From: Spirochaetales bacterium
GTDB taxonomy: Bacteria > Spirochaetota > Spirochaetia > Sphaerochaetales > Sphaerochaetaceae
Direction of reading: 5' to 3'
Assembly (NCBI GenBank): GCA_018433865.1
Contig: JAHDQJ010000002.1
Location: 248,001 to 312,000 of the forward strand
Length of the DNA stretch: 64,000 bases
In this document: positions 31,088 through 48,987 of the stretch, in pieces
Numbering within the stretch: the first letter of the stretch is position 1
Layout of the letters: every line of letters starts with the position of its first letter
Made by a program: the position numbers and the translations under genes
The notes under the pieces: generated by a model
The model's input: only the letters and a program-made list of their open reading frames with translations
Told to the model about the DNA's origin: nothing
Database searches by the model: none

Positions 31088-31133
31088 ATTATACGGCATC
31101 ATGCTTGTATATACAAGATTGGGGGTTTATACT
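31088..31133. promoter_or_regulatory. Symmetric divergent promoter pair built on one palindromic operator
   Basis: The palindrome CTTGTATATACAAG (31104-31117) supplies TTGTAT as the -35 box in both directions. Rightward: TTGTAT (31105-31110), 17 bases, TATACT (31128-31133) for ygeY. Leftward: TTGTAT (31116-31111), 17 bases, TATAAT (31093-31088) for the set A hydroxylase. The centre GTATATAC matches the GTNTANAC core known for HutC/UTRA-type GntR regulators. One bound protein would cover both -35 boxes. Confidence 0.8.
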
Positions 31134-33468: not shown

Positions 33469-33515
33469 TTCCGACTCCTTCGGCAAGCTGTGCCCCCTGA
33501 TCACCTGCCATGCGC

Positions 33516-34253
33516 TCACACGCGACGCATCGTCCGGTAAATCCTCATCTTGTATTGGTACCAATCCCCCCGGTAGATCCCCTCATCATACTCGATGGGA
33601 CGTCCGTCTCCATCGAACACCTCATAATTGAGTTGCAATGCAGCATCATTCACATTGATCTGCAACAGCTCGGCGGTACGCTTGCATACGTTGATTGCAC
33701 GGATCGTCCGGTCGCTGTACGTGGGCACGATACCGTGCCGCTCATACACTTCGAAGAGAGACCCGCTGAAATCTTCCTTGTCCGTGATTCCAAGGTTCGG
33801 AGGAATATAGGTATTGAAGAGAGCGAGCGGAGCCCCATCGACATTCCTCACCCGGCTGATGAGCAATACCTTGGTACCTGCAGGCAGACCCAAGCATACG
33901 CTGATCGGTTCCGACGGGACCACATAGTGGGCCTCCAACAACGTGGAGCTGACCCGGTGGCCTTGGCGCTCCATCTTCTCCGTGAATCCCTCCAAACTGT
34001 TGATATCGTCATCTATGTAGCTCTTGGTCACGGTCGTCCCGATCCCCTGCTGCTTGCGCAACAGTCCGAGCTGGACCAAATTCTCCACCGCCCTGCGGAC
34101 GGTGATGCGCGAAACCTGGAACTCCTTCTCCAACTGCGATTCGGGAGGGATCATGCTCCCTTCCTTGAAGGTCCCATCCATGATCCTTTCTCGCAACACT
34201 TGTTCAATCTGGTAATACAGCGGGAGATTCGTCCGTTTCGGCAATGTGCCCAT
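33516..34253 (-). CDS. GntR-family regulator with UTRA domain (operon-internal)
   Basis: A 245-residue HutC-type regulator. The N-terminal winged helix has LYYQIEQVLRERIMDGTFKEG and the recognition helix around SRITVRRAVENLVQLGLL. The UTRA effector domain spans about residues 85-240. ATG 34253 follows AGGAGG by five bases. Its place inside the kinase/aldolase/transporter operon suggests that it senses a substrate or intermediate of that pathway. UTRA proteins typically bind GTNTANAC cores, so it is one of two candidates for the operators at 31104 and 48731. Confidence 0.93.
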   Translation of the reverse strand: MGTLPKRTNLPLYYQIEQVLRERIMDGTFKEGSMIPPESQLEKEFQVSRITVRRAVENLVQLGLLRKQQGIGTTVTKSYIDDDINSLEGFTEKMERQGHRVSSTLLEAHYVVPSEPISVCLGLPAGTKVLLISRVRNVDGAPLALFNTYIPPNLGITDKEDFSGSLFEVYERHGIVPTYSDRTIRAINVCKRTAELLQINVNDAALQLNYEVFDGDGRPIEYDEGIYRGDWYQYKMRIYRTMRRV

Positions 34254-34290
34254 TCCCACCTCCTCATGCGTTTACCCGCAGGATGACAGT

Positions 34291-35361
34291 TCAGCGGGCA
34301 AGAATCTGACCGACCGAGCGGTCCCAGTAAACCTCTATGGTATCACCTTCATGAAATTGTTGCCAATCCCCATACCCTGTGAACCTGATCGGTTCCCCGG
34401 TATCGCTCATCGCCACGTAGAGGGTGAGCTCACCAAGGAATGTCACTTGTGCTATGGTGGCCGCAAGGCGATTGGCTGCCGACTGGGGGACCTCTTTCGC
34501 CTTGCACGCCTTGAGGAACTCCGGCCGTATGGCAAAGATCGGCTTGCCCTCTCCAAGGGGGGCAACATGTGATCCATCCACTTCGATCACCTTGCCTGAA
34601 TTGAGCGTGTAAGTGGAACGGTCTGCATCGTAGGAGCCTTCGAAAAAGTTTGATTTGCCGATGAAATCGGCGACGAAGTGGTTCGTGGGGGCATAATAGA
34701 TGTCTCTCGGGGAGGCGAACTGGATGATCTTCCCACGATTCATGACCGCGATCCGGTCAGCCATCGTAAGGGCCTCCTCCTGATCATGGGTCACGAAGAT
34801 ACAGGTGATGCCGACGCTCTGCTGTATCTGCCTGATCTGTTGTCGGGTCTCCACCCGAAGCTTCGCATCGAGATTGCTCAGCGGTTCGTCCAAGAGTAGC
34901 ACTTTCGGTTTCATCACCAGTGCCCGGGCAAGGGCTACCCGCTGTTGCTGGCCTCCGGAGAGTTGGTGGATCGATCGACCTCCCTTGCCTTCAAGCTCGA
35001 CGATGTGCAACATCTGGTCCACCCTATCCTTGATCTGGCTCCTGGGTACGCGATGCGTACGCAACCCGAACTCAATATTTTCGAATACCGTAAGGTGCGG
35101 AAACAACGCATAGTTCTGGAATACCAGCGATGTCGGACGCTTCTCGGGTGCGACTTTCGTGACATCGGATCCATCCATCTCGATGGTCCCGTCGTCGGGT
35201 GAAAGGAAACCGGAGAGCGTCATGAGCAATGTGGTCTTCCCACATCCGCTCGGCCCGAGGAGACAGAGCATCTCTCCGTCCTGGACATCGAATGAGACAT
35301 TGTCGACTGCCTTGGTCTCTCCGAATGATTTGCATAAGTTGCGGACGGTCAGCATGGACAT
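34291..35361 (-). CDS. ABC importer ATPase, PotA-like
   Basis: A 356-residue ATPase of the spermidine/putrescine/iron group, bound to the inner face of the membrane. Walker A GPSGCGKTT, Q-loop FQNYALFPHLTV, signature LSGGQQQRVALARAL, Walker B VLLLDEP and the H-loop FVTHDQEEA are intact. The C-terminal TOBE domain starts near residue 275 (GEGKPIFAIRPE). GGGGAGG precedes ATG 35361. It is cotranscribed with a fused permease and a binding protein; the metabolic genes of the operon suggest a sugar or polyol substrate rather than a polyamine. Confidence 0.93.
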   Translation of the reverse strand: MSMLTVRNLCKSFGETKAVDNVSFDVQDGEMLCLLGPSGCGKTTLLMTLSGFLSPDDGTIEMDGSDVTKVAPEKRPTSLVFQNYALFPHLTVFENIEFGLRTHRVPRSQIKDRVDQMLHIVELEGKGGRSIHQLSGGQQQRVALARALVMKPKVLLLDEPLSNLDAKLRVETRQQIRQIQQSVGITCIFVTHDQEEALTMADRIAVMNRGKIIQFASPRDIYYAPTNHFVADFIGKSNFFEGSYDADRSTYTLNSGKVIEVDGSHVAPLGEGKPIFAIRPEFLKACKAKEVPQSAANRLAATIAQVTFLGELTLYVAMSDTGEPIRFTGYGDWQQFHEGDTIEVYWDRSVGQILAR

Positions 35362-35376
35362 GAGCAGAAGCCTCCC

Positions 35377-37188
35377 CTAGAGTTTGAATTTATCCAACCC
35401 CATCACCTTGTTGATCAACAGGAGGATGGAGAGGGCCAATACGATCAGAAGACTGGATACGACAGTCACCGTCGGATCCAAGCCATGCTCAAGCATGGAA
35501 TAGATCCGCACGGGGAGCGTCGTCGTCCTGCCTCCCGCGATGAAAATACTGATGGTGGTCTCATCCAGCGAGGTGATGAACGCGAACATGCCAGCGACGA
35601 TCAGCCCCGGCTTGATGAGCGGCAATGTGATGCGCCTGAATGTCAATAGCGGAGACGCACCCAAGTCCCGTGCAGCATACTCGATGGTAATATCGTATCC
35701 GACCAAGCTCGACAGGACTGTCCTGATCACATAGACGGTGGTGAGAAGCACGTGGGCCGTAAAAATTGCCTTGAACGAGTTGATCCAACCCAGGATGTTC
35801 ATGAAACGCATGAGCGCGATACCGATGATCACCGCGGGAACCATCAACGGAGAGAGGAACAGCGTCTTCAGTAACTCAGGGGAACGATACTTGAATCGTT
35901 TGATCGCCAGTGCTGCGAGCGTTCCTACGGGTAACGAGACCGCGACGGAGAGCAAGGCGATCCGCAAGCTCAGCAGGAAGCTGGTGATATACTCACGTTT
36001 TGCCAGCAAGCCTGTATACCATTTGGTGGAATAGGCCTTGGGCGGGAAGAGGATCATGCTCGATTGGCTGAAACTGCTGATGATCACGATCGGCAGCGGC
36101 AGAACGATGAAGATCAACACCAGGACGGTGAACACATGATAGAGTACGCCTCCCACATGGTGTGCCGCATCATGCCATCGACGATCGTATCTCCCCTTGA
36201 GTGGAGACGAATCGGTTTCCTTGCATCCCATGGCTTTGCACCACAGGTCATAGAGCAGGTTTTTCATACCGCGGATGATACGATAGATCCCGCTGGAGAA
36301 ATCGGAATCCCCATAGATGCCGGTACGGTCGTTCATCCGTTCGATCCTGGCGGTGAGCCGGTTGTAGGTCGTCACCAGCAGGACACAAAAGATCATCAGG
36401 ATGATTGCCGCAGCCGCTGCGAACGGCCAGTTCAGCAACTGCATCGCTTGTTGCTGGACCAGCATCGTCATCACCATGACCTTTCCTCCTCCGAGAAGCC
36501 TCGGGGTAACGAAGGAGCTGAAACTGAGCAGGAAGACGAACAAGCTTCCTGCGACAATCCCAGGTGTGGAGAGGGGAAAGATGACTTTCCAAAAAGCCGA
36601 CATCGGAGAACACCCGAGATCTCGTGCGGCATTCTGCAAGTTGATCTGGAGGTTCTCGAGCACGCTGTTGATCGAGAGGATCATGTAGGGAATGAACACC
36701 TGGGTCAGCCCCAGGATGATTCCCAATTCTCCGGGGATGAACTGCACGGGACCGATACCGAACAATCCGAGCAGCTTGTTCACCGGACCATGGGTAGCGA
36801 ATACGATCATGAGCCCCAGAGTCCGCGCAACCACGTTCGTAAGCAACGGGGTCAGGATCAGTCCAAGCAGAAGGCCCTTCTTCTTGCCCCGTGTCCTGCT
36901 GAGCAGCAGAGCTACCGGGTAGCCGAAGACCAGGGAAAGCAGCGCTGCAAGGAAGGCGATCTTGAATGTCCTCATGAGAATGGTCAGATGATACGAGTCG
37001 AAAAGCCTGACAAAGTTTTCCAATGTGAAGGTGTGTTCGAAGAATCCGCTGCCAGGAACGTAGGTCTGGAATCCTACCACGAAAAGAAGAAGCATCGGAA
37101 TGAAGAATGCCGCGATGATGAGAATGAGCGCAGGCAACAGCAGCGCGTACTTCGCCTTGCCTCTCGATGCTGCAGATGCTTTCGCCAC
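35377..37188 (-). CDS. Fused PotB-PotC-type ABC permease
   Basis: One 603-residue polypeptide containing both membrane subunits of a Pot-type importer. The N-terminal half (residues ~15-275) has six hydrophobic segments and the EAA loop region AARDLGCSPMSAFWKVIFPL. A hydrophilic linker of roughly 60 residues follows, and the C-terminal half (~345-600) has its own set with AARDLGASPLLTFRRITLPL. Each EAA loop contacts one ATPase, so the fusion acts as a pseudo-heterodimer. The start is GTG 37188 with a perfect AAGGAGG at 37200-37194; an upstream TTG lacks a ribosome site. Separate PotB and PotC are the norm. Confidence 0.92.
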   Translation of the reverse strand: MAKASAASRGKAKYALLLPALILIIAAFFIPMLLLFVVGFQTYVPGSGFFEHTFTLENFVRLFDSYHLTILMRTFKIAFLAALLSLVFGYPVALLLSRTRGKKKGLLLGLILTPLLTNVVARTLGLMIVFATHGPVNKLLGLFGIGPVQFIPGELGIILGLTQVFIPYMILSINSVLENLQINLQNAARDLGCSPMSAFWKVIFPLSTPGIVAGSLFVFLLSFSSFVTPRLLGGGKVMVMTMLVQQQAMQLLNWPFAAAAAIILMIFCVLLVTTYNRLTARIERMNDRTGIYGDSDFSSGIYRIIRGMKNLLYDLWCKAMGCKETDSSPLKGRYDRRWHDAAHHVGGVLYHVFTVLVLIFIVLPLPIVIISSFSQSSMILFPPKAYSTKWYTGLLAKREYITSFLLSLRIALLSVAVSLPVGTLAALAIKRFKYRSPELLKTLFLSPLMVPAVIIGIALMRFMNILGWINSFKAIFTAHVLLTTVYVIRTVLSSLVGYDITIEYAARDLGASPLLTFRRITLPLIKPGLIVAGMFAFITSLDETTISIFIAGGRTTTLPVRIYSMLEHGLDPTVTVVSSLLIVLALSILLLINKVMGLDKFKL

Positions 37189-37279
37189 CCTGACCTCCTT
37201 CTCCGTCCGATACGGAATCAAGTGGTATCAATCCCGGTCCCGAGAAGGGGACCGGGTGTTGTGTGCTTCGATACGATCG

Positions 37280-38338
37280 TTACTTTTCCAGGATCTCCCG
37301 ATTCCAGCGATCAGCCCAAGCCGACTGGTTTGCACTCACCACGGGGTTGTTCAATCCGTAGAGCCGTGCGACTGCCGCGTCGCCGTAGACGACCTTTGAT
37401 GCAAGGTCGGCATCCAGCTTGATGTTGCGGTTGGTCGGACCATACTTGAGGACTTCGGCATAAGCCTGCTGGCACTCCTGGGAGAGGTGGATGTTGATCC
37501 AGATCTCCGCGAGATCCGCGTTCTTGGTATTCTTGGGAACAGCAGCGCAGTTCATGCTGAGCACCGCACCCTCCTTGGGAAGGACGAAGTCAACCGGACC
37601 ACCTGCATCCTTGAAGTTGTAGGCGTATCCATCCATCTGCGGAGCGAGCCAGAGATCTCCCTGCTGGAACGCAAGGTTCATCTCATCGATTCCGCTGAGA
37701 ATCATCGGGAACGGCTTGAGCTTCTTGATAGCTTCGAATCCCGGTCCGATGTTCTCTTCGCTACCCCCATGAACTTTTGCAGCCATCACGAGGAATGCGG
37801 TTCCCTGGGTTCCGGGGAATACGAACGGAGCGACTTTCCCCTTGTTCTCGGGTTTCCACATCTCAAGCCATGAATCGGGAGGGGTCGGGAATCGGTCCGT
37901 ATTGTACATCAGGCCGATCGCCATGAGAGCCACTCCGTATCCTCCGCTCGCGGTAGCGATGGGATAGAGGTTTTTGTATTCCGGGACACGATCGGGGTTA
38001 GGAGCACGTATCACTCCGTCCTTCGTCGCCTGTTCGGTCTGGGCCATGCTGAGATACACCACATCCATCGATGGGTTGTTCAGTTCGGAGTATATGCGTG
38101 CATAGCGGTCGGATGAGCCGCCGAGCACGAACTCCACAGTGGCGCCGGTCTCTTCCTCGAACCGCTTGGCAACGTGCTCACGCACGATCTCTTCCTGGGG
38201 TCCGCCCCAAATACCGACGACCAGCGTTCGCCCTTGCCCGATCTTGGGGGCTGCGCCGGCACTCTCCTGCACGCCTGCAGCACCCAAGGTGCCCAGTACG
38301 AGCATGCCGACCAAGAGAATCAGAATCAGTTGTTTCAT
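37280..38338 (-). CDS. Periplasmic solute-binding protein, PotD-like
   Basis: A 352-residue substrate-binding protein of the PotD/iron-type periplasmic group. Residues 1 to ~20 form a secretion signal (LILILLVGMLVLGTLG) without a lipobox cysteine, so the mature protein is probably soluble in the periplasm. The mature part starts near TLVVGIWGGPQEEIVREHVAK, with the typical MYNTDRFPTPPDSW segment mid-protein. The acidic residues that coordinate polyamines in PotD cannot be placed confidently. It overlaps the upstream aldolase by four bases (ATGA). GGGAGG is its ribosome site. Confidence 0.9.
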   Translation of the reverse strand: MKQLILILLVGMLVLGTLGAAGVQESAGAAPKIGQGRTLVVGIWGGPQEEIVREHVAKRFEEETGATVEFVLGGSSDRYARIYSELNNPSMDVVYLSMAQTEQATKDGVIRAPNPDRVPEYKNLYPIATASGGYGVALMAIGLMYNTDRFPTPPDSWLEMWKPENKGKVAPFVFPGTQGTAFLVMAAKVHGGSEENIGPGFEAIKKLKPFPMILSGIDEMNLAFQQGDLWLAPQMDGYAYNFKDAGGPVDFVLPKEGAVLSMNCAAVPKNTKNADLAEIWINIHLSQECQQAYAEVLKYGPTNRNIKLDADLASKVVYGDAAVARLYGLNNPVVSANQSAWADRWNREILEK

Positions 38339-39141
38339 GGATTCCTCCCTCCATTTTGTTTTTCAGCGATTTCCCGGAGCTCCAGCTCCGAGACCCTTTT
38401 CCCGTTATGTACGATTTCCACAAGCGCCCTGGTGATACTGACGGGATCGCGATGACGCCATACATTCCGTCCGATCGCGACACCGGCAGCTCCTACGGAG
38501 ATCGCTTGCTCGATGCTCAAGAACATGCCATTGAGATCGCTTGTCTTCTCCCCTCCCAACACGATGACCGGTTGGTAGCTTGCCTCGATCACTTTCCTGA
38601 ACTCCTCCGGTGGGCCGACATAGGTGGTCTTGATCACATCCGCTCCGTATTCACACCCGGTCCGGCTCGCCAATCGGATGTTCTCGACTGTTTTCGGCGG
38701 ATCAGATGTGAATCCTCCGGGAAGCATCTCGGCAACGACGGGCATGCCCCACGCATGCCCCTCGCGGACCAGGGCAGCAAGGACTTCCATTGTCTGATGT
38801 TCATACGGAGTACCGGGGAATCCCATGCAGACCACAGCATCGGCACCTATGCGCAGGGCATCCTCGATGGTATACAGCAGTTGGGGCCCATTGCCGGAAG
38901 GCCCTATCTGCGATCCTCCGCCATCTGCACGCATGATCACCGCGACATCGGAGAGGATGGATTGATACTTGCGAGCAGTCCCGTAAGAGACAAGGACTCC
39001 GTCAGCTCCTCCTTCTATCACTTGTTCCAGCAATCTTCCGGTGTCATCCAGTTCAGGATTCACATGCATGCCCAACCCATGGTCCAATGCGATGATCACG
39101 GTCTTACCGTTCTTCCTGAACAGCCGGCGTAGTCTGATCAT
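38335..39141 (-). CDS. Class I aldolase of the DhnA/LsrF type
   Basis: A 268-residue TIM-barrel Schiff-base aldolase related to archaeal fructose-bisphosphate aldolase and LsrF. The start motif IIALDHGLGM, the Schiff-base lysine in DVIKTTY and the phosphate-binding GGEKTS and GVAIGRNVWR loops are clear. It probably cleaves or thiolyses a phosphorylated sugar made by the adjacent kinase. The start overlaps the kinase stop (ATGA, 39138-39141) and its own stop overlaps the binding-protein start, so three genes are translationally chained. The substrate is unknown. Confidence 0.9.
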   Translation of the reverse strand: MIRLRRLFRKNGKTVIIALDHGLGMHVNPELDDTGRLLEQVIEGGADGVLVSYGTARKYQSILSDVAVIMRADGGGSQIGPSGNGPQLLYTIEDALRIGADAVVCMGFPGTPYEHQTMEVLAALVREGHAWGMPVVAEMLPGGFTSDPPKTVENIRLASRTGCEYGADVIKTTYVGPPEEFRKVIEASYQPVIVLGGEKTSDLNGMFLSIEQAISVGAAGVAIGRNVWRHRDPVSITRALVEIVHNGKRVSELELREIAEKQNGGRNP

Positions 39142-40547
39142 ACTGTTTCCCCCTGTATGCTATGGAGTGTGTGGAATGTCGGTGCCAAAGTCTCATGGAG
39201 CCGACAATATGTTTCATAGAGTTCTTCGTACCGTTCGAATGCCTTCGGATCAGGATCATGGATGCGATCGATCGGCAACAACTGAGCCAAGCTCTCCGGA
39301 GGAACGGCCTTGTTTCCGACCGCCGCGACCAAGGCAGCACCTACCGGAGCCGCATCCTGATGACGCATCACGTGATAACTCTTTCCCGTGATGTTCGCCT
39401 TGAGTTGTTGCCATCGCGCATCGTGGGAGCTGCCTCCGACTGCCCTGATCGTCGTAACAGGATCCTCAAGCTGCAACAACTCGATGTTCTGGCGGATGGC
39501 AAAAGCTGTGCCTTGCATCACCGCCATGAGCAATTCGGCCTTTCCGGTCGAAGATCGCAATCCGATGAACGCACCTTTGGCCCGCTCATCCCAAACGGGG
39601 CTTCTCTCTCCAATCAGGTATGGCAGGTACAAAAGTGCTTCCGGTTTCCGAGGATCCAGAGAAGACCCGAGGGCCTGCAGGTCCTCGATACCGAGCAACT
39701 CCTTCAACCAAGAGAACGACCGGCCGGTGCTGGATATGGGTTTCACCGTTACCGTCTCTCCTTTCATCACATGGAGATCGCTCCCCCTGCCGTCGGGGTA
39801 AGATCTGCTGACACAACTGCTGGTTCCGGTCTCCTCGACGATCACGGAATGTGCGGGATCGGTACCGGCAACAGCACAATAGGCATCGATTCCTCCCGGA
39901 TAGATCAGAATGCCATCATCGAACCCGCACTCCCTGCTGAAGGGGGTTCCGGTTTCTCCGACCGCTTCCCAACAATCGACAACCTCGGGCAGTACCGAAA
40001 TGGGAAACCCTGCCTTGCGTTCGAGCCACGTGCAGGAATCACGATCAAAGAATGCGAACGTGCTGGCGGTAGAAATGTCCACGACCCGCCGTGAGCACAA
40101 CAGCTGGATCAGATAATCTTTCGGGTAGAGTGCAGTGAAACCTTCTGAGAACAGGCTGGGTTGTTGCTCGTAAAACCACAACAACTTTGCTTCATAGCTC
40201 GACCCATCCTTGGAAAACCCAGGTATTTGCCGGCGCAGCCTATCTGCTTGCAGGCGAGCACGATTGTCCTGCCACGTGAGAAGCGGAGAGGCCGGTTTTC
40301 CGGCCGGATCGATGAACAGCAAGCTCGGACCGTGGCCGCTCAATCCGAGGCCTTGTATCGAGGAAGCGACCTTCCTGTTCTTGGAGAAAAATTCCTGGCA
40401 GGCCGTGCGGACCGTCGTAGCGACGACAGTCGGGTCTTGGGTCCGCTCATCAATTCCCACAGGATAGCTGGTACGCACCACCGAGAAGGTCCCATCGAAG
40501 AGGGCCACCTTGATACTGCCGCTACCGATATCTATCCCCAGGTACAT
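39138..40547 (-). CDS. FGGY-family carbohydrate kinase
   Basis: A 469-residue kinase with the FGGY two-domain ASKHA fold. The N-terminal phosphate loop GIDIGSGSIKVALFD and the C-terminal GGSSHDARWQQLKANITG signature are intact, with GGIDAYCAVAG and EETGTSS in the ATP-side domain. Where xylulokinases have GQMHG, this protein has LSGHGPS, so the sugar specificity is probably different. It heads a seven-gene leftward operon (kinase, aldolase, binding protein, fused permease, ATPase, GntR, dehydrogenase). An AGGTGG ribosome site precedes the ATG. Confidence 0.9.
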   Translation of the reverse strand: MYLGIDIGSGSIKVALFDGTFSVVRTSYPVGIDERTQDPTVVATTVRTACQEFFSKNRKVASSIQGLGLSGHGPSLLFIDPAGKPASPLLTWQDNRARLQADRLRRQIPGFSKDGSSYEAKLLWFYEQQPSLFSEGFTALYPKDYLIQLLCSRRVVDISTASTFAFFDRDSCTWLERKAGFPISVLPEVVDCWEAVGETGTPFSRECGFDDGILIYPGGIDAYCAVAGTDPAHSVIVEETGTSSCVSRSYPDGRGSDLHVMKGETVTVKPISSTGRSFSWLKELLGIEDLQALGSSLDPRKPEALLYLPYLIGERSPVWDERAKGAFIGLRSSTGKAELLMAVMQGTAFAIRQNIELLQLEDPVTTIRAVGGSSHDARWQQLKANITGKSYHVMRHQDAAPVGAALVAAVGNKAVPPESLAQLLPIDRIHDPDPKAFERYEELYETYCRLHETLAPTFHTLHSIQGETV

Positions 40548-40583: not shown

Positions 40584-40612
40584 ATAATATCATATCGTCA
40601 TAATGTTTGAAA
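40584..40612 (-). promoter_or_regulatory. Promoter of the kinase/transporter operon
   Basis: Minus strand: TTTCAA (40612-40607), 17 bases, TATTAT (40589-40584), with extended TG at 40592-40591. The surrounding A/T-rich stretch stands out from the GC-rich background. No GTNTANAC core is visible here. Confidence 0.55.
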
Positions 40613-40658
40613 GAAAAATATCGGGAATTTTCAAGTACCGGCCATGGGGTCCTGTTCA

Positions 40659-40687
40659 TTGCGGTAATCGGCAGTTCACGGTATACT
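40659..40687 (+). promoter_or_regulatory. Leaderless promoter of the second GntR gene
   Basis: TTGCGG (40659-40664), 17 bases, TATACT (40682-40687), then exactly six bases to ATG 40694. The transcription start coincides with the start codon. Confidence 0.65.
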
Positions 40688-40693
40688 CTATCC

Positions 40694-41410
40694 ATGTCGA
40701 AGCCCTCACTACGCTACCAGCAGGTGAAAGAGCACATCAAGCAGGAGATATCCTCGCTTCAGGTCGGTGACAACATGCTCCCCAGCGAACCGACGCTCAC
40801 ACGAGCCTTGGGCATGAGCAGGGAGACTGTCAGGAAAGCGATCGCCGAGCTTTCCCGTGAGGGACTGGTCAGCACGTGGCATGGAAAGGGAAATTTCGGA
40901 CACCCGAGCGTGCTGAATCTTCCGATGCGCTACGACCTCAATTCCAATTTCAGGTTGCTGTTGGAACAAGCCGGATTCGATGTCCTCGCACAACGGGGGG
41001 CGCATGAGATAACGGATCTGCCCGAACGGCTCAGGAGGCGATTCCCCACTCCCGATGCTCCGTTCATACGGTTCACCCAGGAACTCATGGCACATGGAGA
41101 GCTGGCCATCATCAGCGATGTGTATATCAAGCGCGATCACCTGAAGGTCCTGCCAGAAGCGGGACCCTACACCGACAACATCGACAGTTTCTTCTCCACC
41201 CACTGCACCGCACCCATCGAATATGTGATCGCGTGGCCGAAAGCAGACAACCATGCCATCAACGCTGTCCGATTCGGTCTTGACCCCGCTTGTCCATTGC
41301 TCGGTTGGGAGGAGGCTTATTACAATATCCATGATGTGTGCATGGGAATCATCGAGGTACACTTCAACCCGAAGGTCATGGACCTGAGCATGCTGCTTCA
41401 CTTTTCCTGA
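40694..41410 (+). CDS. GntR-family regulator with UTRA domain
   Basis: A 238-residue HutC-type regulator. The winged helix is at residues ~5-75 (YQQVKEHIKQEISS, recognition helix SRETVRKAIAELSREGL). The UTRA domain occupies the rest, with the conserved AIEYVIAW-like strand (APIEYVIAW). No ribosome site precedes ATG 40694; the -10 box lies six bases upstream, so translation is probably leaderless. The gene is divergent from the kinase operon and converges with ssnA at a distance of four bases. It therefore touches both systems and is a candidate for controlling either. Confidence 0.9.
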   Translation: MSKPSLRYQQVKEHIKQEISSLQVGDNMLPSEPTLTRALGMSRETVRKAIAELSREGLVSTWHGKGNFGHPSVLNLPMRYDLNSNFRLLLEQAGFDVLAQRGAHEITDLPERLRRRFPTPDAPFIRFTQELMAHGELAIISDVYIKRDHLKVLPEAGPYTDNIDSFFSTHCTAPIEYVIAWPKADNHAINAVRFGLDPACPLLGWEEAYYNIHDVCMGIIEVHFNPKVMDLSMLLHFS

Positions 41411-41414
41411 GCAC

Positions 41415-42803
41415 TCATTCTGTTGCATCCTGGGGTTTTCCTCTTTCACCACGGATGACTCGCGCTGCCTCAACTCCCCGCACACGCAACCGATTCGCTT
41501 CCATCCTGGTCGCTTCTCGCGCCTTTGCAAGATCCCCTCCGAGGAGCCTGCCGGCGTGTTTCACCTGACGTCCGGCGATGTATACTTCACGTACGTCCGA
41601 TGGATTCCTGTAGAGGACCAGTTGTTCGAAAAGATTGTCCGGATGGACAAAAGTAGGAAGACTGTCCAGGGAAATCACTTGGAAGTCAGCCCAACATTCA
41701 GGAGCGAGAAGACCGACAGGACATCCTGCAACGCCGAACACCACTTGTGCACCCATCTGCGTGGCCATGTTCCAGACGGTATGTGCCGGCATCACCTGGG
41801 TTGAGCGGCGATGCCCCTTGTGCACCAGGAATGCCCAACGCATCAACTCAAAGAAATTGTTGATATACCCATCGGTTCCGAGCCCCACGGGAATTCCCGC
41901 TTCAAGCATGTCGGGAACCGGGGAAATGCCGCCACCGACCTCACAATTGCTGATCGGTACATGGACGGCACGTACCTTGTGTTTTGCAAGCAGTCCGATC
42001 TCCGAAGGATCGAGCCGGACACACTGTGCGGCAACCAATCGGTCGGAAAGCAGACCGAGCCGATCATACCACTGTACCGTTCGTTCACCGTGCTGAGCGA
42101 GCACCCATTGAGGTTCATAATCACTTTCATTCAGGTGCAGCTGGATGTCGATACCATGGGCATCGGCCAGATCGATCGCCTGGCGGATGAAGGGCGCACT
42201 GCACGTGAATGCCGTATGGAGGCAAAGCATCGACGAGACCACACCTTCAGGACGTTGGCGCATCCTTTGTGCGAAACTCAAGTTCGCCTGCAAGCAATCC
42301 AGCCCTTCGGATGTGCCCAGACGCTCTGAACATTCTACACTCAGCACGGATCTCAATCCGATAGAAGCGAGTACATGAGCAGCAACGGACAATCCCTCCT
42401 GTGCTGCCAATGGAGCCTCCAGGACATCGCACAGCGTGGTGACACCACTATCTATCGACTCGAGTGCGGCATGCTCGCTCGCAGCACCTATCATCTTGCC
42501 ATCCAGCTGATTCTCGACCAGAGGCCACCAATAGTCATTGAGAAAGCTCTCGAACGAAGTGATCGGAACAGGGGAAGCCAGACCATGGGCAAGTACCCCG
42601 TACATGTGCATGTGGGCGTTCACAAATCCTGGAGAGAGCACCGCGTGACCGTGATCCGTCACCTTCGCTTCACCAAATCGCTGCAAGGTCTCTTCAAACG
42701 GACCGACATGGAGGATGCGGGACCGGGAAAACACCACGGCCCCGCGCTCGATGATCCTCTGGTTCGGCCCGATCAGGAAATCGGCGACATGGATCTCAAT
42801 CAC
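41415..42803 (-). CDS. ssnA: SsnA-type amidohydrolase
   Basis: A 462-residue metal-dependent hydrolase of the chlorohydrolase/guanine deaminase group, SsnA type. The metal ligands are in VNAHMHMYG, HLNESD and a later GTDGYINNFFE. Deaminases of this fold act on purine or triazine rings. It is the last gene of the six-gene purine operon. The start is GTG 42803 with GGGAGG six bases away, 29 bases after ygeW. The HLNESDYE motif (in place of the usual HLAE) is shared with the atypical SsnA branch, whose substrate is not established. Confidence 0.9.
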   Translation of the reverse strand: MIEIHVADFLIGPNQRIIERGAVVFSRSRILHVGPFEETLQRFGEAKVTDHGHAVLSPGFVNAHMHMYGVLAHGLASPVPITSFESFLNDYWWPLVENQLDGKMIGAASEHAALESIDSGVTTLCDVLEAPLAAQEGLSVAAHVLASIGLRSVLSVECSERLGTSEGLDCLQANLSFAQRMRQRPEGVVSSMLCLHTAFTCSAPFIRQAIDLADAHGIDIQLHLNESDYEPQWVLAQHGERTVQWYDRLGLLSDRLVAAQCVRLDPSEIGLLAKHKVRAVHVPISNCEVGGGISPVPDMLEAGIPVGLGTDGYINNFFELMRWAFLVHKGHRRSTQVMPAHTVWNMATQMGAQVVFGVAGCPVGLLAPECWADFQVISLDSLPTFVHPDNLFEQLVLYRNPSDVREVYIAGRQVKHAGRLLGGDLAKAREATRMEANRLRVRGVEAARVIRGERGKPQDATE

Positions 42804-42832
42804 GCGTTGCCTCCCTTTCCGGAAAGAAATGC

Positions 42833-43834
42833 CTACAGTCCGGCCATCGTGCAAGCCATGATCGCCTTCATGATATGCAGGCGGTTTTCGGCCTCATCGA
42901 TCACCACGGAGTGTGGCCCGTCCACGACCTCGTCGGTCACCTCGACTCCCCTGTCGAACGGCATGCAATGCATGTAGATCGAATCCCGCTTGGCAAGATC
43001 CATCTTATGCTTGTCCACCACCCAGTCCATGCAACCGTTCTCCCGATAGCTGTCGATGATCTTGATTCCCTCGGCCTCATCCTCGGTATGCATGATCGGA
43101 CCCCAGCCTTTGGCATATACGATGTCTGCTCCATCGCATGCTGCTTCCATGCTGTCCACGACTTCGAATTTCGTCCCAGCGAGCTGCGCATTCTTCCGAG
43201 CCGCATCCATGATCTCCGGTTTCAAGGAGAATTCCTTCGGATGTGCGAGTGTCACGTCGAGGCCGAACCTCGGCATTGCCAGGACGAGGGAATGCGCCAT
43301 CGAAAGCGGCCTGATATAGTTCGGTGCGCTTGTCCATGAGACGACGATCCGTCTTCCTCGCAAGTTGTTCTGGAATTTTTCCTTTATTGTCATGATATCC
43401 GCGAGCACTTGCGTCGGATGGTAATCCTCGCACTGCATGTTCACCACAGGGATGGATGACCACTTCGCGATCTCCCGCATGTAGGCGTGCCCAGGTCCGT
43501 AGGTCTTCCGGATTCCCAGTCCTTCGCCGTATCGGGAAAGGACCTGTACGGTCTCCTTCGCAGTTTCACCGTGATCGATCTGCGTCGCCTTCGGGGTCAG
43601 GAAGTGAGCGTGTCCTCCCAACTGATGGATACCGGCTTCGAATGCATTGCGTGTCCGCGTCGACTCTTCGAAAAAGAGCATGAAGAAAGTTTTCGCACGC
43701 AATATCTGGTCATGATAGATTCCGAGTTGGCGTTCCTGCTTCAGCCTGTCGGCCACTGCAAGCAGTCGCTCCAGTTCTTCCAATGTCCAATCCTGCGTGG
43801 TCAACAGATGCTTACCTTTCAATGAACTGTACAT
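42833..43834 (-). CDS. ygeW: YgeW-type knotted carbamoyltransferase
   Basis: A 333-residue transcarbamylase of the knotted YgeW branch. The carbamoyl phosphate loop is Ser58-Thr-Arg-Thr-Arg62 (STRTR). HPTQVLADIMTI follows, and the second-substrate loop reads HCMPFDRGVEV rather than the HCLP of ornithine carbamoyltransferase. YgeW enzymes lack aspartate or ornithine activity, and their substrate is unresolved. Run in reverse, such an enzyme could recover carbamoyl phosphate, hence ATP, from purine breakdown. AAGGAG precedes the ATG, 45 bases after the Fe-S subunit gene. Confidence 0.92.
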   Translation of the reverse strand: MYSSLKGKHLLTTQDWTLEELERLLAVADRLKQERQLGIYHDQILRAKTFFMLFFEESTRTRNAFEAGIHQLGGHAHFLTPKATQIDHGETAKETVQVLSRYGEGLGIRKTYGPGHAYMREIAKWSSIPVVNMQCEDYHPTQVLADIMTIKEKFQNNLRGRRIVVSWTSAPNYIRPLSMAHSLVLAMPRFGLDVTLAHPKEFSLKPEIMDAARKNAQLAGTKFEVVDSMEAACDGADIVYAKGWGPIMHTEDEAEGIKIIDSYRENGCMDWVVDKHKMDLAKRDSIYMHCMPFDRGVEVTDEVVDGPHSVVIDEAENRLHIMKAIMACTMAGL

Positions 43835-43879
43835 GTGCTTCTCCTTTTTTATCTATGTGAGTTGAAGGCCCGCCATTTT

Positions 43880-44359
43880 TCACTGTGAATATTGCCGCAT
43901 CCTCTGGGCTGCAAGCTCGATTGCCTCGATGATCTGCACATACCCCGTACACCTGCATAATGTCCCGCTGATCGCAGTCCGGATTTCACGCTCGCTCGGC
44001 TCGAGCGTGTTCGAAAGCAGTGCGTATGCGCACAGTACCATCGCCGGTGTGCAGAATCCGCATTGGATCGCGCCGGCATCGATGAAGGCCTGTTGCACCG
44101 GATGCAACGTTCCATCCGGAGCAGCCAGCCCCTCGATCGTGAGAATCCTGTGCCCATCGGCCTGCGCGGCCAATACCAAGCAACTTGCAACCGGAGTTCC
44201 ATCCAGCAAGACGGTGCAGGCACCACATTCCCCGATACCGCAGCCTTCCTTCGTCCCTGCAAGTCCGAGCCGATCACGCAACATGTCGACCAATCGTTCC
44301 GACGCTCCGACGGTAAGGTCATGTACTCTTCCATTGATCTCACAACGTATGTCCATCAT
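43880..44359 (-). CDS. Xanthine dehydrogenase-type [2Fe-2S] subunit (set B)
   Basis: A 159-residue iron-sulfur subunit. The first cluster is bound by Cys40, Cys45, Cys48 and Cys60 (CGIGECGAC, then ASC). The second is in CGFCTPAMV and CRCTGYVQI. The start ATG 44359 overlaps the FAD-subunit stop (ATGA), with AAGGGGA as ribosome site. It carries electrons from the Mo centre to the FAD subunit. It is the fourth gene of the purine operon. Confidence 0.93.
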   Translation of the reverse strand: MMDIRCEINGRVHDLTVGASERLVDMLRDRLGLAGTKEGCGIGECGACTVLLDGTPVASCLVLAAQADGHRILTIEGLAAPDGTLHPVQQAFIDAGAIQCGFCTPAMVLCAYALLSNTLEPSEREIRTAISGTLCRCTGYVQIIEAIELAAQRMRQYSQ

Positions 44360-45228
44360 GCTTCCCCTTGCGTGCCGAGCACTCTCGTCACTGCACGTCG
44401 CATCAATTCCTGCACTACAGGGATCTTGTATGCGAAAGAGCGCCGCTGGCCGGTAACCGTGATAGCCAGCTCTGCTGCCAAGGCTCCCACCTTCATCGGA
44501 TCGACTTCGCCAATCGCCTTTCCCATCATATACCGCTCGGCTTCTCCCACCCGTCGCGGCCACGGCATCAATGCCCCCACGACCACGCGGGCGTCGGTGA
44601 TGCGATGGCCTGCGATCGTGGTCAATACAGCGACGCTCATGCGACTCTTCGCAGCCGCCTGTCGACGTGCAATCTTCAGGAACATCCCTTGCCGGTTGCT
44701 GTTCGGAAGAGGGATCATGATGTCCGTGAGTATCTCGTTCGATGCATCGAAGCGTGTTTCCCCTTCATCGAGATAGGAAGCCATAGGTACACACCGTACC
44801 CCCCCGACACGTGCAAAGACCAGCTGTGCATCAAGCGCGAGCAACGGCACGACCGTATCCGCACACGCAGCCAGTGTGATGATGTTTCCTCCGATGGTGC
44901 CACGATTCCGTATCTGCGGAGAACCCACATGTGCACTCGCTTGGGCGAGGATCGGGAGGAATTCCCGTATCACCGGGTCTTCCATGATACGGGAATGGGT
45001 CACAAGCGGACCGATGTGGAGCATGTCTTCCTCATGTCGGATGTTGCCCAGTTTCCCGGCCAAAGGACTCAAGTCAATCACCATCTGTTTCTGCGCATAC
45101 AGCCCGGATCGCAACGCAGGCATCACGTCCGTTCCTCCGGCGATCAGGAGGGCTTGCTCCTTATGGACCGACAACTCTTGCAACGCGTCATCGAGAGAAC
45201 CGACCTGCATGAATCGTTGTATCGCCAT
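44356..45228 (-). CDS. Xanthine dehydrogenase-type FAD subunit, YgfM-like (set B)
   Basis: A 290-residue FAD-binding subunit that passes electrons from the Fe-S subunit to NAD+ or another acceptor. The FAD loops LLIAGGTDVMPALRSG and RNRGTIGGNIITLAACAD are intact, followed by the CO-dehydrogenase flavoprotein C-terminal domain. ATG 45228 has AGGAG about ten bases upstream, inside the end of the Mo-subunit gene. It is the only FAD subunit seen for this enzyme family in the window, so it may also serve set A. Confidence 0.92.
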   Translation of the reverse strand: MAIQRFMQVGSLDDALQELSVHKEQALLIAGGTDVMPALRSGLYAQKQMVIDLSPLAGKLGNIRHEEDMLHIGPLVTHSRIMEDPVIREFLPILAQASAHVGSPQIRNRGTIGGNIITLAACADTVVPLLALDAQLVFARVGGVRCVPMASYLDEGETRFDASNEILTDIMIPLPNSNRQGMFLKIARRQAAAKSRMSVAVLTTIAGHRITDARVVVGALMPWPRRVGEAERYMMGKAIGEVDPMKVGALAAELAITVTGQRRSFAYKIPVVQELMRRAVTRVLGTQGEA

Positions 45229-45241
45229 CTCTTCCGAACTC

Positions 45242-47566
45242 CTATAGCGCGTGACCAAGAACTACCCGCTCCAGATTGAGCGGCAGTTCCCGGATCCGCT
45301 TTCCCGTTGCATTTGCATGTGCATTCGCAATTGCAGGGGCGATCATCTCGATTCCCAACTCACCGATTCCCTTGGCTCCATAGGGCCCGACATGGACATC
45401 AGTCTCACTGATGATGATATCGATCGGCGGAATATCCATCGCTCCTGGCATGAGAAAATCATCGAAGTTGCGCGTATGCAGGTATCCGTCGCTGCAGTCC
45501 ATTTCTTCCATCAACGCATAACCCATCCCTTGGATTGCTCCTCCGATGAATTGCCCGCGCACGATCTGTGGATTGATGGCCTTCCCGAGCTCGATCGCAC
45601 TGGTGATCCGTTTCACTACGATCACCCCCGTACCTTGGTCGACTTCCACCTCGGCAACCGTCGCTCCGAACAGATAAGACGGATACGCAGGTCCCTGACC
45701 GCTTTCATGATCGAAATATTGGGGTCCGGGAGAATGCCACCCGAGGCTACGCAACGAGATGCCCTCGCCCTTGAGACAGATTCGTGCAGCCTCGGCAAAC
45801 CCGATACGGTTCAAAAGTTCCTTGTCCGGAGTCATGGCATATACTGCCGAATCGCTGAAATGCAGGGTCGACCCCTCGGGAGCCATCCACTTCGGAAGCA
45901 GGACCTCTTCGATGCGCTTGCGCAGTTTCCCGCACGCATCCTTCACCGCATTTCCACCCGAGACGATGCCGCGCGAGGCAACCGTAGGACCCGCATCCAT
46001 GTTTTCGGCAGTATCATTCTGACTCCAGGTTACCCAAGTGCTGTCGATTCCGAATTCCTCGGCGGCAATCTGACAGAGTGTGGTCGAGAGTCCCTGGCCC
46101 ATCTCGGTGAATCCGCTTTGGACCCGGACCTTCCCATCGGCATCGATGGTCACTGTCGCCGATCCGGTATCGATTCCCTCGCCCCCCAGTCCTACTCCCC
46201 GGAACGTGATGCTCAGACCGATGCCAGCGACTACCGAGGTACTTCCAACTTCGGTCCGGGCAATCCGATTGCGCTCCCATTTCTTTTCGAAATCGGTCTT
46301 GCTGCATACCAGCTCGATCAGGTCGGCGACATTTGCCGGCATGAAAGCAGGATCGAGGACCTGTCCGGTGGGAAGCCGATCATACGGTTTCACGCAGTTG
46401 AGGAGCCTGAACCGTACCGGATCCATTCCCACAGCCTCTGCACACTCATCGATGAAAGACTCAATGCCGAACACCACCTGGGGGGCGGAGAATCCTCGGT
46501 ACGCACCACCGAAAATCGTGTTGGTATGCACACCGTGGATATCCGTGCATACGTGCGGGATCGCATACGGTCCCGCCGCGTGGATGCTTCCGCGCCAATT
46601 GGCGAACATCGCCTGTTTGTTGTAAGCCCCTCCCTGCATATGGTGAAGCGACTTGATGGCGAGCAGACGCCCGTTCTCATCCAACCCCGCTTCGTAGTTG
46701 CTGGTGATCGGGTGACGCTTCGCACTTGCCATGAAACTCTCTTCGCGGGTAAGGACCGCTTTCACCGGCCTGCCGGTCCTGAGCGATAAGACGGCGGCAC
46801 GTGATGCGATGAACATCATCGACTCGTCCTTCCCCCCGAAACTCCCTCCTATGCCGCTTTGGATCACCCGTACCTGATTCAACGGCCTGTCCAATACCTT
46901 CGCCAAGGCTTCCCTGATGTTGTAGGGATTCTGGATGGTTCCCCGGATCACTACGGTATCGGTATTCGGATCGAACTCGGTGATCACCGCCTCGGGTTCG
47001 ATGTACCCATTGTCCACGAACTGTGTCGCGTAGGAGTGCCGGATCACCTTCGGAGCCTCACGAATCACCGCCTCGGCATTCCCATCATGCAAGTGGTGCG
47101 ATGCGTAATCGATGCGGTTTCCCTGGGTATCATGGTGAATCATCGGAGCATCCGGAGCGAGAGCCTGATCGACGGTCGTCAACACGTCGAACTGCTTTCC
47201 ATAGCGGATGCACACGGCCGCCGCTGCCATCTCAGCGCTTTCGGCGCTCTCAGACGCTATCGCGGCCACCGCATCCCCGATGTAACGCGCGCGATCGGAA
47301 ACCAACACAGGGAACCGACCGAAGAGAATCGGGTTGCCGGGAATATCCCGTGCGACGATGATGTCCACCACACCGGGAACTTTCCACGCTTCGCTGAGAT
47401 CGATCGATTCGATCTCCACATGAGGATAGTGTGTGTACACACTCTTCATGTGCAGTTGCCGGTATGCGTTCTGGTCGTTGCCGAATACGGTGGCACCAGT
47501 AACCTTGGCAATACCATCCTTCCGATTGATCGCCTTGCCGACTGTCACATGATCTTCATCTGGCAT
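45242..47566 (-). CDS. Xanthine dehydrogenase-type Mo-cofactor subunit (set B)
   Basis: A 774-residue molybdopterin-binding subunit. The hammerhead domain begins around GIAKVTGATVFGNDQ. Cofactor motifs are GGSFGGKDESMM, GGAYRGFSAPQ, the classic EMGQGLSTTLCQ and the catalytic-glutamate block GPYGAKGIGELGIEMIAPA. ATG 47566 is preferred because GAGGAGAG lies just upstream; an ATG at 47581 overlaps the previous stop. With the FAD and Fe-S subunits it makes a complete three-part dehydrogenase. A purine substrate is inferred from the ygeW and ssnA context. Confidence 0.92.
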   Translation of the reverse strand: MPDEDHVTVGKAINRKDGIAKVTGATVFGNDQNAYRQLHMKSVYTHYPHVEIESIDLSEAWKVPGVVDIIVARDIPGNPILFGRFPVLVSDRARYIGDAVAAIASESAESAEMAAAAVCIRYGKQFDVLTTVDQALAPDAPMIHHDTQGNRIDYASHHLHDGNAEAVIREAPKVIRHSYATQFVDNGYIEPEAVITEFDPNTDTVVIRGTIQNPYNIREALAKVLDRPLNQVRVIQSGIGGSFGGKDESMMFIASRAAVLSLRTGRPVKAVLTREESFMASAKRHPITSNYEAGLDENGRLLAIKSLHHMQGGAYNKQAMFANWRGSIHAAGPYAIPHVCTDIHGVHTNTIFGGAYRGFSAPQVVFGIESFIDECAEAVGMDPVRFRLLNCVKPYDRLPTGQVLDPAFMPANVADLIELVCSKTDFEKKWERNRIARTEVGSTSVVAGIGLSITFRGVGLGGEGIDTGSATVTIDADGKVRVQSGFTEMGQGLSTTLCQIAAEEFGIDSTWVTWSQNDTAENMDAGPTVASRGIVSGGNAVKDACGKLRKRIEEVLLPKWMAPEGSTLHFSDSAVYAMTPDKELLNRIGFAEAARICLKGEGISLRSLGWHSPGPQYFDHESGQGPAYPSYLFGATVAEVEVDQGTGVIVVKRITSAIELGKAINPQIVRGQFIGGAIQGMGYALMEEMDCSDGYLHTRNFDDFLMPGAMDIPPIDIIISETDVHVGPYGAKGIGELGIEMIAPAIANAHANATGKRIRELPLNLERVVLGHAL

Positions 47567-47577
47567 CCGTTCTCTCC

Positions 47578-48705
47578 TCATGTCGACGCTCCGACTTGAC
47601 CCGAACCTGGGACGAAACCAAGCGCTTCGGTCGGACAGACCGAGATACACAAGCCACAGAGCCGACACAGCTTTCGGTCAACCTGGAATCCCTTCTTGCC
47701 GGTATGCTGAGCCCGATAAGGACATACTTGATTGCACTTACGGCAATCGGTACACAGGGTATGGTCAAAACTGAACTGCTGTGTTCCCTCGTCGGGGAGA
47801 GCCGCGGTATCCATTGCTCCCGTCGCCTCGGAAAACGAAGCAAAGCCGACTTCGACCAGAAGATGAGCGGTATCAGCAATAAGCTTCTTGAGATAGTCGG
47901 GGCCTCGCAACATCAATACGGTGCAAAGACCGACAGCATGCGAACCGGCCAAGGCGAACTCGATCACATCCTGTGCCGTGGTGACACCTCCCAACCCGAT
48001 GATCGGCAGTGAGGTCATCGAGGAGAGTGCGTTGATATAGTGGAGGATGATCGGTTTGATCGCGCTTCCGGTAAGCCATCCCCTGCCATCGGTACCAGCG
48101 ACCACGCTCTTGCGCGTCTTGATGTCGATGGAGAGTACCGGGCCGACTGAATCCATTGCAGTGAAGCCCGCCACCCCACATCCTTCAAGCTCGCGTATCA
48201 TCGCGAGCGGGTCGACCCAATTCGGACTGAGTTTCACGAATACCGGTTTTCCCGTCAACCTGACGGCCTCACGTGCCATCGGGATGATCTGCATGGCCTC
48301 ATAGGAGACCAACTCGACAGCTGATACTCCGGTAGCAGTGATCGGCACCGTCCATTTCTTTATCTCATCCAATGTGTGGCCGATACTCGCAATGACCGTT
48401 ACGCCTGCCTCTACTGCGGCAGGCAACTCTTGCTCCACCCATTGTCGTGGGTTGTAGTCGCTCCACAATTCGGAATTGATCATGGCTCCCTGTCTGGAAT
48501 ATCCGTGGATATGGGGAATCGGATTCTGTGCCGCCTGATCCCGGATCGTCTTGGTCACCACCGCTCCTGCACCGAGTCGGGACAACAGCTTCATCCCCTG
48601 TGCCCCGTACGTGAGCGGACCCGAACCGATGATGAACGGGCTTTGCAACTTCATCCCGGCGAGCATCACCTGCATGTTTGCGCCTTTCATCCCAAGATTC
48701 TCCAT
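47578..48705 (-). CDS. PreA-like flavin oxidoreductase with C-terminal 2x[4Fe-4S] ferredoxin domain
   Basis: A 375-residue protein. The TIM-barrel dihydroorotate/dihydropyrimidine dehydrogenase domain (residues ~10-300: SPFIIGSGPLTYG, FVKLSPNW, GLGGVTTAQD) binds FMN. The C-terminal ferredoxin has two cysteine sets (CTDCRKCNQVCP and CRLCGLCISVCP). It resembles PreA but no PreT partner is adjacent, so electrons may come from a ferredoxin. It leads the six-gene purine operon, where other bacteria carry YgfK. No ribosome site precedes ATG 48705 and the -10 box is six bases away, so translation is probably leaderless. ATG 48690, with GGAG upstream, is an alternative start. Confidence 0.88.
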   Translation of the reverse strand: MENLGMKGANMQVMLAGMKLQSPFIIGSGPLTYGAQGMKLLSRLGAGAVVTKTIRDQAAQNPIPHIHGYSRQGAMINSELWSDYNPRQWVEQELPAAVEAGVTVIASIGHTLDEIKKWTVPITATGVSAVELVSYEAMQIIPMAREAVRLTGKPVFVKLSPNWVDPLAMIRELEGCGVAGFTAMDSVGPVLSIDIKTRKSVVAGTDGRGWLTGSAIKPIILHYINALSSMTSLPIIGLGGVTTAQDVIEFALAGSHAVGLCTVLMLRGPDYLKKLIADTAHLLVEVGFASFSEATGAMDTAALPDEGTQQFSFDHTLCTDCRKCNQVCPYRAQHTGKKGFQVDRKLCRLCGLCISVCPTEALGFVPGSGQVGAST

Positions 48706-48711
48706 GACTGG

Positions 48712-48748
48712 ATTTTACCACCGATCATCCATCTTGTACATACAAGAT
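48712..48748 (-). promoter_or_regulatory. Leaderless promoter and palindromic operator of the purine operon
   Basis: The perfect palindrome ATCTTGTA-N2-TACAAGAT (48731-48748) covers the -35 box. On the minus strand: TGTACA (48740-48735), 17 bases, TAAAAT (48717-48712), six bases, ATG 48705. The inner twelve bases match the operator at 31104, and the similarity extends through ATACAAGATTGG at both places. Confidence 0.75.
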
Positions 48749-48987
48749 TGGATGCTATGAAACCATAGGGATCCCCTCCCGCATCCCTAGCAACATGAGG
48801 CTCCGATTTGCCTTCCCCCTCGCGATCGAACATGCCTGAAGGCAATTGTTTCATAGGCATAAGCACATGATCGATGCACAGTGTCTGCCCGTTCCGAGAT
48901 CCGGTGCCGGTACTGCAAAGATCGGGACAGCAGAATCGCTAGGTATGATATATCGGATGAAGGAAGGGATTTCCTAAACCATATAGC
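48749..48987. other. Intergenic stretch without recognised features
   Basis: Part of the 374-base gap between the purine operon promoter and oadG. I see no gene with a ribosome site, no convincing hairpin terminator and no riboswitch match. Confidence 0.5.

Follow-up and report, generated by a model that had tools for sequence, protein, structure and literature searches.

Reductive purine degradation was elucidated as recently as 2025, with urate as the substrate. The E. coli cluster for reductive uric acid degradation comprises ygfK, ssnA, hyuA, ygeW, ygeY, ygeX, xdhD-ygfM and yqeA (PMC12507026), while in C. difficile a DHO_dh protein described in 2025, UacX, takes the place of YgfK; UacX was assayed with yanthine (2,8-dioxopurine), which it reduces, and ferredoxin was suggested as its electron donor (PMC12507026). 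Barba et al. (2013) described "DHase X1", found with hyuA, ygeW, ygeY, ssnA and xdhABC (PMC4016543). Here, we describe a six-gene operon encoding a UacX-type reductase, a molybdenum (Mo) hydroxylase, a YgeW-related transcarbamylase and an SsnA-like amidohydrolase in the window G000:C18:248001-312000, the 64-kb stretch of a 2.9-Mb Spirochaetales genome that was analyzed. We observe conserved linkage of these genes, an operator-like palindrome shared with neighboring genes, coexistence with the canonical uric acid set and divergence of the active sites. We regard it as probable that the operon makes up half of a regulon under GntR control, serving a second reductive pathway acting on purine-type rings, parallel to the canonical YgfK/SsnA/YgeW pathway.

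Like the E. coli cluster, the window set combines a Mo hydroxylase, a reductase of the dihydroorotate dehydrogenase (DHOD) fold, an SsnA-type amidohydrolase, a YgeW-type transcarbamylase and a YgeY-family hydrolase. Unlike that cluster, it lacks YgfK, has its own regulator and lies in a genome that holds the canonical set too, and its SsnA, YgeW and YgeY counterparts are 24-34% identical to the E. coli proteins and form separate clades. With the UacX clusters of C. difficile and of a Cetobacterium somerae plasmid (NZ_CP092520, L073) it shares a single-chain reductase with flavin mononucleotide (FMN) and 2x[4Fe-4S] and without a flavin adenine dinucleotide (FAD) domain; the Cetobacterium UacX and the window reductase agree in the missing catalytic loop of dihydropyrimidine dehydrogenase (DPD) and in the GWLSG motif. 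Whereas the UacX clusters have a canonical SsnA and, in place of a transcarbamylase, the D-aminoacylase UacY, the window has a diverged amidohydrolase, here called SsnA2, together with a transcarbamylase. The window reductase resembles E. coli PreA/PreT in its DHO_dh fold and two C-terminal [4Fe-4S] motifs but is only 22% identical, lacks the catalytic loop and has no PreT partner. DHase X1 is likewise a DHOD/DPD homologue with uricolytic-type gene neighbors; in the section of its description consulted, we found neither a coexisting ygfK set nor the operator nor the SsnA2 substitution (PMC4016543). Substitution of YgfK is itself not a new idea, since UacX (PMC12507026) and DHase X1 (PMC4016543) have already been published.

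A six-gene operon beside a canonical gene set

The list of open reading frames (ORFs) places six genes on the minus strand, from 48705 down to 41415, forming one operon (Table 1). With likely starts chosen from ribosome-binding sites (RBSs) and homolog starts, the intergenic distances from the preA-like to the SsnA-like gene are 11, 13, -4, 45 and 29 bases, and the Pfam/NCBIfam classes in operon order are DHO_dh with two Fer4, MoCoBD, FAD_binding_5, Fer2/Fer2_2, OTCace and Amidohydro_1. A previous reading of this DNA made from the letters alone (the sequence-only reading) had described these six genes in this order, no overlap or gap exceeding 45 bases, and every ORF and family was confirmed. 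It was also right that the operon has no PreT partner and that ygeX and a hydantoinase are absent from the 64-kb window; a true YgeY-family gene does lie in the window, outside the interval that it covered. Its 375-residue dihydropyrimidine-dehydrogenase-like protein is indeed a DHO_dh protein with 2x[4Fe-4S], but one of UacX type, with 365 amino acids from the likely start.

Where the sequence-only reading went wrong was in having the PreA-like protein replace YgfK. It had named a separate complete YgfK cluster elsewhere as an observation that would refute it, and contig C38 of the same genome carries a canonical one, in the row ygfK, ssnA, ygeY, a guaD-like gene, ygfM, xdhD and ygeW. Identities to the E. 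coli proteins are 53% (ygfK), 52% (ssnA), 50% (ygeY), 55% (xdhD) and 66% (ygeW), and the C38 SsnA scores 558 bits, above the cut-off of the SsnA profile TIGR03314. Searching the genome with E. coli YgeX, YgeY, HyuA, YqeA and UacT gave clear matches on other contigs, and statements of genome-wide absence rest on targeted searches. Four of the genes that the reading had proposed to look for lie on other contigs: ygeX (C9), a hydantoinase gene (C29), carbamate kinase (C24) and selD (C33). The assembly is estimated to be 99.9% complete and 0.6% contaminated, and two genomes of the same genus (G001, G002) carry a 92% identical YgeW. Of the eight genomes found to carry the PreA-like gene, each has a canonical YgeW (in the other seven, 62-82% identical to the one here) and seven have a canonical SsnA that scores above its cut-off. 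Because the canonical cluster coexists with the operon here and in relatives, we take the window genes to be a parallel set and not a substitution for YgfK. That the organism has no purine or urate route other than this operon, PreA filling the role of YgfK, is scarcely credible: the gene families were correctly named, but the C38 cluster refutes the idea here unless C38 is contamination. What survives of the variant purine pathway proposed earlier is the kinship of its enzymes to purine-type relatives and a reductive Fe-S flavoprotein step without PreT. The proposed recovery of ATP through carbamoyl phosphate agrees with the fitting transcarbamylase in the operon and the carbamate kinase gene in the genome.

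The C29 hydantoinase (L038:4205-10420) is preceded by genes that by eye look like glycine decarboxylase, and it groups with the hydantoinase of G114's version of the window operon (support 0.99). In G124, two pyridoxal phosphate (PLP)-dependent enzymes, one cysK-like and one threonine-synthase-like, follow the transcarbamylase operon (L021:16387-19092); their orthologs (66% and 57%) adjoin ygfK on C38 here (L102:8012-10854). If the PLP enzymes act downstream of both pathways, these may come together at a similar amino acid.

A UacX-type reductase and diverged partner enzymes

A domain search finds DHO_dh and [4Fe-4S] domains in the window reductase, without an FAD/NAD(P)H domain, and against the PreA profile NF006183 the protein scores 115 bits, below the 335-bit cut-off. 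It lacks the catalytic Cys/Asn loop of PreA and DPD, the PreA stretch missing there being ECNFSCPQMTSHAMGSDVG. Both the window family and a Cetobacterium UacX-like protein lack this stretch and have MDS or MNS for INT. By pairwise score this Cetobacterium somerae 4Fe-4S protein is the nearest among the named dehydrogenases compared (31% identity; 187 bits, compared with 84 bits for E. coli PreA), and it is encoded in a complete cluster of dpaL, ygeY, D-aminoacylase, ssnA, guaD, UacX-like, FAD, Mo and hydA genes. Because the loop is missing as in the Cetobacterium UacX, the sequence comparison points to a UacX-type enzyme rather than a pyrimidine dehydrogenase. It probably also belongs to the DHase X1 family. 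An AlphaFold model of moderate quality (mean predicted local distance difference test score, 70) has its best structural matches in DPD and dihydroorotate dehydrogenase B and adds little; PDB titles among these matches name C671A/S mutants of pig DPD, pointing to that Cys, which we take to be catalytic. A single-protein search of genome contigs gave one weak match, to the Fe-S part only, so the distribution of the reductase beyond its own phylum is drawn from plasmid records only.

Two variants were seen in related stretches. An 835-amino-acid fusion (L024:7856-10363, L025:9397-11904) joins a loop-less UacX-type domain to a PreT/YgfT-like NAD(P)H module and adjoins SsnA2, and is possibly an NAD(P)H-linked version of the UacX-type step. 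In G099 (L018:7726-9621), an aldehyde:ferredoxin oxidoreductase gene separates the Mo-subunit gene from that of the reductase.

The partner enzymes have diverged as well. The window amidohydrolase scores 213 bits against TIGR03314, under the 455.5-bit cut-off, and the carbamoyltransferase 182 bits against the YgeW profile TIGR03316, under the 500-bit cut-off. Being so far below curated cut-offs, they are relatives and not SsnA and YgeW proper, which corrects the names ssnA and ygeW given in the sequence-only reading. The SsnA2 clade is separate from SsnA (tree support 1.0). SsnA2 retains the metal ligands, yet Gln260 occupies the position of SsnA's beta-strand-6 catalytic His: Gln stands there in 8/8 SsnA2 members of the alignment and His in 3/3 SsnA proteins, and an alignment with deaminases of solved structure matches the same positions. 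The transcarbamylase carries a YgeW-type loop, SWTSAPNYIRPLS, groups with YgeW as opposed to ornithine transcarbamylase (OTC) and aspartate transcarbamylase (ATC) (support 0.98, with few outgroups and long branches), and shares 68-93% identity with its orthologs from five further genomes. Substrate residues of xanthine dehydrogenase (XDH; the Glu/Arg positions) were dropped as a guide to the Mo-hydroxylase substrate, since the Glu position is not diagnostic: E. coli XdhA and XdhD themselves vary there.

A palindrome shared by two groups of genes

A palindrome, ATCTTGTAYATACAAGAT, lies upstream of the six-gene operon and again in the gap that separates the YgeY-family gene from a second Mo hydroxylase (FeS2-Mo2). 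The M20 hydrolase that the YgeY-family gene encodes shares just 33% identity with E. coli YgeY. For the 14-base core of the palindrome, 0.09 chance matches are expected in the window; the palindrome occurs at exactly two places in the whole genome and recurs in two other genera. G045 has it between M20 and preA, at a locus with a 53% identical GntR. G085, from another genus of the same family, has it between M20 and FeS2-Mo2, and another of its short contigs keeps the window's gene order, with FAD, FeS, transcarbamylase (93% identical) and SsnA2 genes and a convergent GntR (59%). No copy lies in those examined stretches that contain the canonical cluster or the kinase operon described below. 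Since the palindrome is unique to two places and recurs in two genera, one GntR regulon probably covers these genes, with the convergent GntR protein regulating the six-gene operon, the M20 gene and FeS2-Mo2 through this putative operator.

On C18 just past the window end (L041:1692-6472) lies a third Mo-hydroxylase subunit, its ORF starting inside the window, and an NCS2-type permease (UacT-like, 28%) is found about 1.2 kb beyond the end.

Table 1. Features of the window (window positions; for the six operon genes the upper coordinate is the likely start)
Feature	Position	Strand	Remarks
Operator-like palindrome CATCTTGTACATACAAGATTG	48730..48750	.	before six-gene operon, overlaps promoter-like site
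UacX/DHase-X1-type reductase, DHO_dh (FMN) + 2x[4Fe-4S]	47578..48675	-	ORF from 48705
Mo-hydroxylase 1 molybdenum subunit	45242..47566	-	XDH-like, own clade; ORF from 47668
Mo-hydroxylase 1 FAD subunit	44356..45228	-	ORF from 45258
Mo-hydroxylase 1 [2Fe-2S] subunit	43880..44359	-	ORF from 44563; RBS precedes ATG 44359
Carbamoyltransferase with YgeW-type (knot-loop) segment	42833..43834	-	groups with YgeW versus OTC, ATC
SsnA-like amidohydrolase (SsnA2)	41415..42803	-	Gln260 for beta-strand-6 His; ORF from 42854
GntR-family regulator	40607..41410	+	convergent with operon; orthologs 53% (G045) and 59% (G085) beside same genes
Companion operon	32395..40547	-	between regulon halves; separate regulator; linked in several genomes
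FGGY kinase	39138-40547	-	
DhnA/DeoC-type aldolase	38335-39141	-	
ATP-binding cassette (ABC) transporter	34291-38338	-	
GntR2	33516-34259	-	
Zn-dependent alcohol dehydrogenase (Zn-ADH)	32395-33564	-	
M20 hydrolase, YgeY family	31186..32388	+	357 bits versus cut-off of 321
Second palindrome copy ATGCTTGTATATACAAGATTG	31101..31121	.	between divergent M20 and FeS2-Mo2 genes
Mo-hydroxylase 2 [2Fe-2S] subunit (FeS2)	30578..31069	-	
Mo-hydroxylase 2 molybdenum subunit (Mo2)	28270..30618	-	XdhA-like, below cut-off

Proposed pathway and alternative explanations

In the scheme that we propose, in which every reaction, the electron donor and a substrate other than urate or yanthine are our inference, one or both Mo hydroxylases would hydroxylate or dehydroxylate a purine-like heterocycle, which the UacX-type flavo-Fe-S protein would then reduce (dearomatize). 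Reduced ferredoxin is the probable donor, because the reductase has no NAD(P)H domain. SsnA2 and a hydantoinase encoded elsewhere may open the rings to give ureido compounds; the YgeW-related transcarbamylase would phosphorolyze one ureido group to carbamoyl phosphate, from which carbamate kinase would make ATP, while hydrolysis of the other would fall to the YgeY-family M20 enzyme. The chances seem evenly balanced that this is a dedicated anaerobic pathway for a non-urate purine-like heterocycle (candidates include an N-substituted purine, a pterin and a purine-like ring bearing a polyol side chain), assembled from uricolytic enzyme copies that have diverged and come under their own GntR operator, storing energy as carbamoyl phosphate and using an SsnA-type hydrolase without the catalytic His. 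A parallel, separately regulated set in one genome suggests that the reductive chemistry extends to other heterocycles, and warns that not every SsnA/YgeW/UacX-like cluster should be annotated as uricolytic. Because the operator marks out which genes form a group, induction offers a way to hunt for the substrate.

Several points weigh against a second ring pathway. By pairwise score the transcarbamylase is nearer to a Pusillibacter enzyme encoded beside preA (237 bits) than to E. coli YgeW (191 bits), and a small tree places the sole UacX included, that of Cetobacterium, with PreA (0.93) and not with the window clade; the UacX comparison itself is to this one protein, identified by its gene cluster, and not to the assayed C. 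difficile UacX. The hydantoinase, ygeX and carbamate kinase that the route needs are unlinked to the operon and may serve the urate pathway only. The regulon includes no dedicated purine permease, a riboswitch search of the window and eleven related stretches returned only a tRNA, and binding of the palindrome by GntR is a supposition. Active-site divergence could also be tolerated by an isoenzyme.

A rather unlikely alternative is that the regulon is an isofunctional second urate/yanthine pathway that carries out the C38 reactions with a ferredoxin-linked UacX-type reductase, under another redox state or inducer. The UacX-type architecture with its common loop deletion, the published reduction of yanthine by C. 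difficile UacX (PMC12507026) and the duplication of all functional classes support it, but SsnA2 has Gln where SsnA keeps His, each duplicated enzyme falls in its own clade, the operator is separate and absent from the canonical-cluster stretches, and canonical YgeW is kept in every genome with the window set. Far less plausible is a reductive breakdown of pyrimidines in which the carbamoyl group is removed by phosphorolysis. The PreA-like fold, with its best structural matches to DPD, fits such a role, as does the Pusillibacter plasmid, where preA occurs with an amidohydrolase, a 39% identical transcarbamylase, a cytosine permease and carbamate kinase; we rejected it because the catalytic loop is missing from the reductase, where the Cys/Asn loop of E. 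coli PreA is gone and INT is replaced by MDS across the family. It is also at odds with the regulon, which contains a second Mo hydroxylase, XDH-like, together with a YgeY-family enzyme. The Pusillibacter faecalis row itself (NZ_AP023421, L074:9983-21167) runs preA, amidohydrolase, carbamoyltransferase, then cytosine permease, nitrilase and carbamate kinase, and looks like pyrimidine degradation with carbamoyl-phosphate recovery.

The parallel ring pathway could be refined through the companion kinase-aldolase operon, which separates the regulon's two halves and has its own GntR2 and no regulon palindrome. It is linked to the ring genes in the window, G124, G114 and G131 (one contiguous block) and partly in G099; a single G131 contig carries Mo2-FeS2, a sugar-type ABC transporter, ADH-aldolase-FGGY-GntR and transcarbamylase-FeS-FAD-Mo. 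The aldolase occurs in nine genomes and the PreA-like gene in eight, with six in common (p ~1.5e-7; own genome and relatives searched), or seven (p ~4e-9) when the fragmented G085 is counted. Because the companion genes are linked and co-occurring, they suggest a substrate with a sugar or polyol part, its side chain degraded by the FGGY kinase, Zn-ADH and DhnA-type aldolase and its ring by the regulon. We hold this refinement only tentatively: the separate GntR2 and lack of a common operator speak against it, G045 and G138 have the ring genes and no aldolase match at E 1e-50, no nucleosidase was found among the genes examined, a bias toward large genomes may inflate the co-occurrence, and the companion genes could simply form a polyol operon of the usual kind. 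Riboflavin was considered as a polyol-bearing substrate and found no support; its gene neighborhood as described combines a class I aldolase and an ADH with RibF but includes neither a Mo hydroxylase nor an FGGY kinase (PMC12934955). Within the companion operon, positions 35377-37221 form a 614-amino-acid ORF with two ABC permease domains, which in the G085 relative (L054) are two separate genes.

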